Part shown: positions 40,199 to 41,744 of the stretch, one piece after another
Position numbering within the stretch: the stretch's first letter is position 1
Layout: each line of letters starts with the position of its first letter
Made by a program: the position numbers and the translations under genes
The notes under the pieces: model-generated
Told to the model about the DNA's origin: nothing
Seen by the model: only the letters and a program-made list of their open reading frames with translations
The model's database searches: none
From: Desulfotignum sp.
Lineage (GTDB): Bacteria > Desulfobacterota > Desulfobacteria > Desulfobacterales > Desulfobacteraceae
NCBI GenBank assembly: GCA_021737695.1
Contig: JAIPDL010000002.1
Span: forward strand, 62,001 to 126,000
Direction of reading: 5' to 3'
DNA: 64,000 nucleotides

Positions 40199-40507
40199 TC
40201 AGCTGCAGGATCCGCCGCATCCGCCACAATCCGGTGCCCCGAGATCCATGTTGGAATCCAGATGAAATCCCATTCCCGTGAAATCGATTTTAATCTGTTC
40301 CGCTTTTTGCATAAATTCTTTGTCCACAACAAATTTGTGGCCTTTTACTTCAAAACTGTCATCCGAATTTTTAGGCTCATCCAGAGCCATGGCAAGGGAA
40401 GGTCCCCCTCAGCCGCCGGAATTCAGAAAAATACGAATCGGGGTCGGTTCCTTCCCCTGAAAGTAGTTGTCGATCTGCTCCTTTGCAGGATCTGTCAATT
40501 CAATCAT
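40199..40507 (-). CDS. HesB/IscA-like selenoprotein (Sec at codon 33, TGA)
   Basis: Reading through one in-frame TGA (40411-40409) gives a 102-residue HesB/IscA-like protein: MIELTDPAKEQIDNYFQG, then PIRIFLNSGGUGGPSLAMAL, ending GAPDCGGCGGSCS. The Sec sits exactly where IscA/HesB proteins have the first cluster-binding Cys (SGGC), and HesB-like selenoproteins are a known family in deltaproteobacteria. The ATG at 40507 has AAGGAG upstream; starting after the TGA at Met40 would delete the family's conserved N-terminus. A SECIS-like hairpin follows the TGA. It probably handles Fe-S clusters or acts as a redox protein; the role of the Sec form is not known. Confidence 0.92.
40374..40388 (-). promoter_or_regulatory. 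SECIS-like hairpin of the HesB-like selenoprotein
   Basis: In the mRNA, GGCTC-TGGAT-GAGCC forms a perfect 5-bp stem with a 5-base loop, beginning 20 bases after the UGA. A G lies within the first two loop positions. Distance, stem and loop fit the bacterial SECIS pattern that SelB recognises. Confidence 0.6.
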
Positions 40508-40534
40508 TGGTAAACTCTCCTTATGGTTTATTGA

Positions 40535-40593
40535 ATTCAGGTTGTGCCCGCCTGAATGACCCATAGTTTAATCACCGTCCCATGGCCTGTCAA
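40535..40593 (-). promoter_or_regulatory. Promoter and inverted repeat upstream of the HesB-like gene
   Basis: On the - strand TTGACA (40593-40588), 17 bases and TAAACT (40570-40565) form a strong promoter. An inverted repeat ATTCAGG-N9-CCTGAAT (40535-40557) begins at about the predicted transcript start, which suits an operator or a 5' leader hairpin. Confidence 0.65.
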
Positions 40594-40679: not shown

Positions 40680-41744
40680 ATGAAATTGTCCGTTCCTTTT
40701 ATTGCTGATGGCCTCTATATCGATTTTCTGATTAAAAACAAATCGTTACTGTCATCTGTGTATTTTGCGTTGCCAGACGGTCCGGTTCTCGATGCCCGGG
40801 TTCAGTTTGGATCTTCGGACCTGCATTTTTTACAAAAGCATCTGCCCCGCCTGGGCACAATCAAAACCTATTGTCTTTTCAACACCCGCTTTATCACCCC
40901 GGACCGGTATTTTGACACCCGGTTTCTGAACCGGATACTGGACCGGCTCCAGGCCCTGGATTCGATTGGCAGCATCAGCGGTATCGTGTTCTCGGATATG
41001 TATCTGCTCACGGCCCTGTCAAAAACCGGGCACAAACAGGTGAAATTCCTGGAAGCCGTACCCGGAATCAACATGATGCTGGACAATGCCCCCAAAGCAT
41101 TTTCCATGCTGGCAGCTATCCGGGAAACCTGTTTTAAAATGCCTGAAAAACTGGTGATAGACCGATCTTTGAACCGGGATTTCAACGGCTTGGAAAAAAT
41201 GGTGTCCGCCATCCGGCAGGCCTGCCCGGATGTGGGCATTGAACTGATGGCCAATGAAGGGTGTCTGAGTCACTGCCCCTTCAAATTCACCCATGATGCC
41301 CAGGTCTCTTTGTCCAATACCAGACTGGTCCCGGAGATGACCCACCGGATCAGTCAGGTGCATGGGTGTCATGATTTTTTTTATCGTCATCCACATTATT
41401 TTTTCAGCAGTCCGTTTATCCGACCCGAGGATCTTGCCGCCTATTCGCATCTGGCCGACACGGTCAAAATCAGCGGCCGAACCCTGGGATCACGCTTTTT
41501 AATTCAGGCCGTCAATGCATACATCCACAAATCATTTGACGGCAACCTGCTGGAATTGATGGATGCCACCCGGTTTTTAGCTGATGCTTATCACGTGGAC
41601 AACAAACAGCTGGGACCTGATTTTTTATTCACCCTTGCCGGGTGCAATCACTTGTGTGTAAACTGCACCCGATGCCGGGACCTGTTCAACCGAACCGCCC
41701 GGCAACAGACACGAATACTCAAACCTTACAAGGACAGACCATGA
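40680..41744 (+). CDS. U32-like cysteine-cluster protein
   Basis: A 354-residue protein with the look of the U32 "peptidase"/UbiU-UbiV superfamily, whose members hold a [4Fe-4S] cluster and help hydroxylate or modify substrates. Support: a TIM-barrel-like series of strands, the NEGCLSHCPFKFTHD motif (about residues 192-206) with two of the presumed cluster cysteines, an HGCHDFF segment, SPFIRPEDLAAYSHLADTVKISGRTLGS (in parts) and a cysteine-rich C-terminus CNHLCVNCTRC. The assignment is by pattern, so a different cysteine-cluster family is possible. Its stop overlaps the galE start by four bases. Confidence 0.5.
   Translation: MKLSVPFIADGLYIDFLIKNKSLLSSVYFALPDGPVLDARVQFGSSDLHFLQKHLPRLGTIKTYCLFNTRFITPDRYFDTRFLNRILDRLQALDSIGSISGIVFSDMYLLTALSKTGHKQVKFLEAVPGINMMLDNAPKAFSMLAAIRETCFKMPEKLVIDRSLNRDFNGLEKMVSAIRQACPDVGIELMANEGCLSHCPFKFTHDAQVSLSNTRLVPEMTHRISQVHGCHDFFYRHPHYFFSSPFIRPEDLAAYSHLADTVKISGRTLGSRFLIQAVNAYIHKSFDGNLLELMDATRFLADAYHVDNKQLGPDFLFTLAGCNHLCVNCTRCRDLFNRTARQQTRILKPYKDRP

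Follow-up and report, generated by a model that had tools for sequence, protein, structure and literature searches.

A HesB/IscA-family gene of Desulfotignum whose in-frame UGA very probably encodes selenocysteine

HesB-like selenoproteins were counted among the known selenoproteins in a readthrough survey of 2005 (PMC1242214), and by 2006 the bacterial family comprised 11 members, with hosts including Syntrophobacter, Syntrophus, Desulfovibrio, Geobacter, and Desulfuromonas (PMC1794560). The UxGP motif of the family was given in a 2026 review (PMC13188914). In Methanococcus maripaludis, a HesB-like selenoprotein (MMJJ_08070) was found through mutagenesis and 75Se labelling, and its function was stated as unclear (PMC11097638). 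The gene described here lies in a window of 64,000 nucleotides, the whole stretch of DNA that was analysed, from a genome placed in the genus Desulfotignum by its nearest named relatives and represented by an assembly that is 88% complete. A sequence-only reading of the window had proposed a HesB/IscA-like selenoprotein at this locus and had remarked that such proteins are known, as they have been since 2005-2006; we regard the gene as a further well-supported member of the described family. It shares with the HesB-like family of the 2006 survey (PMC1794560) and the UxGP family of the review (PMC13188914) the UxGP motif (UGGP here), the A-type fold, and deltaproteobacterial hosts. By description it is also like MMJJ_08070, a HesB/IscA-related selenoprotein, although that protein is archaeal and the present gene is bacterial.

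When TGA is translated as selenocysteine (Sec, U), the minus strand yields a complete HesB/IscA protein of 102 residues (MIELTDPAKEQIDNYFQGKEPTPIRIFLNSGGUGGPSLAMALDEPK...APDCGGCGGSCS), and the second TGA of the frame is its true end (40507-40199; Table 1). The position of the first TGA and the completeness of the readthrough product were exactly as the sequence-only reading had given them, and so was the outcome of standard gene finding: ordinary gene callers cut the HesB selenoprotein gene at the UGA, and without readthrough the residual open reading frame is the 63-residue fragment from Met40 to Ser102. An internal start at Met40, the gene finder's choice, is disfavoured because Leu takes the place of Met at codon 40 in 25 of the 128 Sec copies. 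The Cys-rich tail that ends the product also closes the full-length relatives among those listed.

Table 1. Features of the HesB/IscA-like selenoprotein locus and of selB in the window
Feature	Coordinates	Strand	Basis and remarks
Sigma-70 type promoter TTGACA-17-TAAACT	40565..40593	-	10/12 matches; TTGACA kept in 13/13 aligned loci of the genus
Leader hairpin/palindrome ATTCAGG-N9-CCTGAAT	40535..40557	-	Between promoter and ribosome-binding site; covarying versions in L070 and L082
Shine-Dalgarno AAGGAG	40517..40522	-	9 nt upstream of ATG; kept in 13/13 aligned loci
HesB/IscA-like selenoprotein gene	40199..40507	-	102 codons + stop; Sec (UGA) at codon 33; TGA=U translation, NF038090, PF01521, IscA fold
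Sec UGA codon	40409..40411	-	Codon 33, aligned with Cys35 of E. coli IscA; TGA in Sec loci, Cys codon in paralogues
bSECIS hairpin GGCUC-UGGAU-GAGCC	40374..40388	-	5 bp; stem starts 20 nt after UGA, loop 25 nt after; RNA fold and comparison
Cys-rich C-terminal tail DCGGCGGSC (C94, C97, C101)	40202..40228	-	Presumed further cluster/metal ligands; from sequence
selB, selenocysteine-specific elongation factor, 637 aa	21574..23487	+	TIGR00475, 344 bits vs cut-off 242

The stop that standard gene finding places at the UGA would also fit a nonsense mutation or a sequencing error in an ordinary Cys-type HesB gene, leaving either the short fragment or no product at all. The relatives refute this explanation: members of the family were found in 57 of the 59 related genomes, and 55 of the 57 hold a copy with TGA at codon 33 (the remaining two have Cys copies only). 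Of 297 genomes sampled across the phylum, 165 had a match, 125 of them above the cut-off; TGA occupied the codon-33 column in 81 distinct Sec loci of a first set and in 108 of a larger one, and the Cys homologues that had been sought at this column were found as 22 paralogues in the first set and 28 distinct copies in the larger. On the 3' side of the UGA, dN was 0.02-0.18 and dS mostly about 0.7-3 against all relatives except the two closest (two of the dS values being saturated), and purifying selection persists downstream of the UGA; coding sequence is conserved on either side of the in-frame codon. The early judgement that a nonsense mutation was unlikely holds in light of the shared TGA column and this selection, and with the TGA-dependent hairpin and the sel genes considered below, mutation or error is left with a negligible probability.

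On a tree built with the Sec/Cys column masked, which rests on few columns and is weakly supported at many forks, at least 7 switches between Sec and Cys are required, 4 of them forced by supported branches. Most Cys copies form one paralogue clade, and their genomes have usually kept a Sec copy as well. Given the near-universal Sec form in the Desulfobacteraceae and the Cys paralogue in several close relatives, the Desulfobacteraceae are a good place to study why an IscA-like protein uses selenium. In more distant relatives (L141, L142, L143, L149, L156, L159, L162), one Sec and one Cys copy stand in tandem a few hundred bases apart, the Cys partner being without the SECIS stem. These tandem pairs are a new observation, and might point to a heteromeric pair or to selenium-dependent switching.

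Archaeal SECIS elements lie as a rule in the 3' UTR. In the present gene, the hairpin follows the UGA within the coding sequence, and the UGGAU loop carries G at positions 2 and 3. The bacterial (bSECIS) model calls for a small apical loop that lies 16-37 nt from the UGA and has a G in its first two positions (PMC13188914), and the hairpin agrees with it in both its loop distance (25 nt) and the G at loop position 2. The five base pairs, their offset, and the G near the loop start had been described exactly by the sequence-only reading, but as evidence the hairpin was weak until compared across species: a loose scan of the window returned 27 readthrough frames that carry hairpins of SECIS-like form, an abundance of chance candidates that a proponent of nonsense mutation could cite. 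The hairpin alone was accordingly rejected as evidence for Sec, and it is the comparative data that bear the weight. All 5 stem pairs are formed in 103/108 distinct Sec loci vs 0/28 distinct Cys loci (a pair is broken in the other 5 Sec loci), four sequences show compensatory stem changes (GGUUC-GAACC in three and UGCUC-GAGCA in one), and no comparable stem occurred at any other offset. The codons that make up the hairpin are frozen in the 81 Sec loci of the first set (Ala GCT in 79/80, Leu CTG in 81/81, Glu GAG in 77/80) and vary in the 22 Cys loci, and the four-fold codons that adjoin them change freely in the Sec loci. The shared TGA column, the selection downstream of it, and a hairpin and synonymous codons kept only in TGA copies cannot be chance, and the conservation of the hairpin is the strongest evidence for Sec decoding. 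The locus also offers a clean comparative test of the bacterial SECIS, with three hairpin codons frozen solely where the UGA is present. In one Sec relative (L158, in genome G160), the SECIS loop is a natural variant, UGGCU; the Asp that follows the frozen Leu is replaced by Ala, and the stem is complete.

The genome holds the complete selenocysteine machinery, namely selA, selB, selC (tRNA-Sec), and selD. The selB gene that had been noted 17 kb from the locus is present (Table 1); its proximity, to which weight had also been given, is incidental, because selA, selC, and selD, all found as the reading needed them to be elsewhere in the genome, sit on contigs other than that of the window. Under the proposed mechanism, a complex of SelB, GTP, and Sec-tRNA(Sec) would dock on the hairpin 20 nt downstream and decode UGA codon 33 as Sec, and insertion by SelB at this codon is, judged from the sequence, strongly supported. 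Reading of the UGA by near-cognate suppression (e.g., as Trp) has nothing specific in its favour; the paralogues carry Cys at the UGA column, the SECIS is conserved, and tRNA-Sec and SelB are present, all of which make suppression exceedingly improbable. From the sequence comparisons as a whole, we hold it almost certain that UGA codon 33 of this HesB-family gene encodes selenocysteine. The selD gene of the same genome (G000:C122:12239-13165; L137) has an in-frame TGA inside it, so that SelD is probably itself a selenoprotein.

A family search with the 102-residue readthrough product led, as expected of a HesB-like selenoprotein, to a HesB family already known to be of selenoprotein type: NF038090 (NCBIfam IscA_HesB_Se) matched over its full length (model positions 1-101 of 101) with 112.8 bits vs a cut-off of 85, with Sec or Cys at the same column; nothing notable sets the protein apart from this family, inside which the spacing of the C-terminal Cys residues varies. 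The Pfam domain Fe-S_biosyn (PF01521) was found at 33.4 bits vs a cut-off of 26.3. The UxGP family of the 2026 review is listed under TIGR01911 (PMC13188914), whereas the present protein scored 30.1 bits with that model (HesB_rel_seleno), below the cut-off of 66.35, and fits NF038090 instead; with the IscA/SufA/ErpA equivalog models (TIGR02011, TIGR01997, NF010147) it reached 28-32 bits vs cut-offs of 117-151. An AlphaFold2 model (mean pLDDT 86, with the C-terminal tail disordered from residue 92) matches the folds of E. coli IscA (1s98, TM 0.72-0.75), SufA, and DsrR of Allochromatium. Sequence alignment with 1s98 puts Sec33 on IscA Cys35, and alignment and predicted fold together show Sec33 at the position that the first cluster cysteine occupies in IscA, where the sequence-only reading had put it; in the folded protein, Sec33 would replace that cysteine. 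The protein thus has three features of an A-type carrier, namely the Fe-S_biosyn domain, the IscA fold, and a filled first ligand position. It is like E. coli IscA and SufA (1s98, 2d2a) also in its Cys-containing C-terminus, but differs from them in having Sec for Cys, the UxGP motif, and a C-x2-C-x3-C tail in which the C-terminal CxC of A-type carriers is absent, with 23-29% identity in structural alignment. Its assignment to the HesB/IscA (A-type iron-sulfur carrier-like) superfamily, as a Desulfotignum selenoprotein of the NF038090 subfamily, is well supported.

As to role, Sec33 and the Cys-rich tail, judged from the sequence, probably act together as ligands for an iron-sulfur cluster, for iron, or for a different soft metal, or take part in thiol/selenol redox chemistry during cluster transfer. 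Against the tail completing a metal site are its disorder in the model and its spacing (C-x2-C-x3-C vs CxC in IscA). Homology inclines us modestly towards an Fe-S carrier role. With Sec accepted, the HesB fold might instead have been reused in a protein for selenol-based redox catalysis or for the handling of metal(loid)s, Sec33 and the Cys tail forming a redox pair or a soft-metal trap. The UxGP motif and the Cys-rich tail, which departs from the CxC of IscA, are compatible with such a protein, as are the redox roles supposed for most uncharacterised selenoproteins (PMC13188914), the unimpaired nitrogen fixation of the M. maripaludis HesB-like mutant (PMC11097638), and the absence of syntenic Fe-S assembly genes; the fold and ligand position are nevertheless those of IscA, and no other A-type carrier was found when the 88%-complete assembly was searched with NF038090, PF01521, and TIGR00049. 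We therefore rate a redox or metal-handling role as a real but lesser prospect than the carrier role. Since no other carrier was found, the HesB selenoprotein may serve the cell as its principal A-type protein, a suggestion to be read with the 12% of the genome that is absent and with the failure of the six-frame PF01521 search to detect the present gene too, which means that weak A-type homologues could have escaped. The bolder proposal that a selenolate-ligated A-type protein is the lineage's sole A-type Fe-S carrier, replacing IscA/SufA/ErpA, with its expression under the control of a conserved 5'-terminal leader hairpin, is improbable; if it were true, Fe-S delivery would depend on selenium supply.

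Upstream of the gene, the consensus promoter and the AAGGAG that had been claimed for it were both located (Table 1). Between the -10 box and the ribosome-binding site, some 30 Desulfotignum and Desulfobacula loci (L022, L044-L082) carry a palindrome, TTCAGG-N(4-11)-CCTGAA, with loops that vary, and two covarying forms were seen (TTCAAAC..GTTTGAA in L070 and TTCAGAC..GTCTGAA in L082). In some of the more distant relatives (L033, L083, L091, L093, L118), hairpins of other sequence lie at a similar position upstream of hesB. The conserved 5'-leader hairpin is a new observation, and is possibly a 5'-terminal stabiliser of the mRNA or a regulator site. Folding z-scores of the leader (mean -1.38 in Sec vs -0.78 in Cys loci) hardly separate the two kinds of loci and were set aside as proof.

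The neighbours of the gene are thiamine diphosphokinase, LptFG, and galE genes, an arrangement confined to its close relatives (Desulfotignum, Desulfobacula, and kin). Neither Fe-S nor selenium genes occur in its flanks in the window and the relatives, and synteny was rejected as a functional clue on that account. A divergently oriented 354-aa protein encoded in the window (40680-41744, plus strand), which has no Pfam or NCBIfam match, is conserved in Desulfotignum and Desulfobacula and has a Cys-rich C-terminus (CNHLCVNCTRC). In a relative of the same genus (G011; L097:13-2818), the Cys paralogue follows genes for iron-sulfur and flavin/NAD-binding subunits that by eye resemble AsrA/AsrB or the beta and gamma subunits of sulfhydrogenase.
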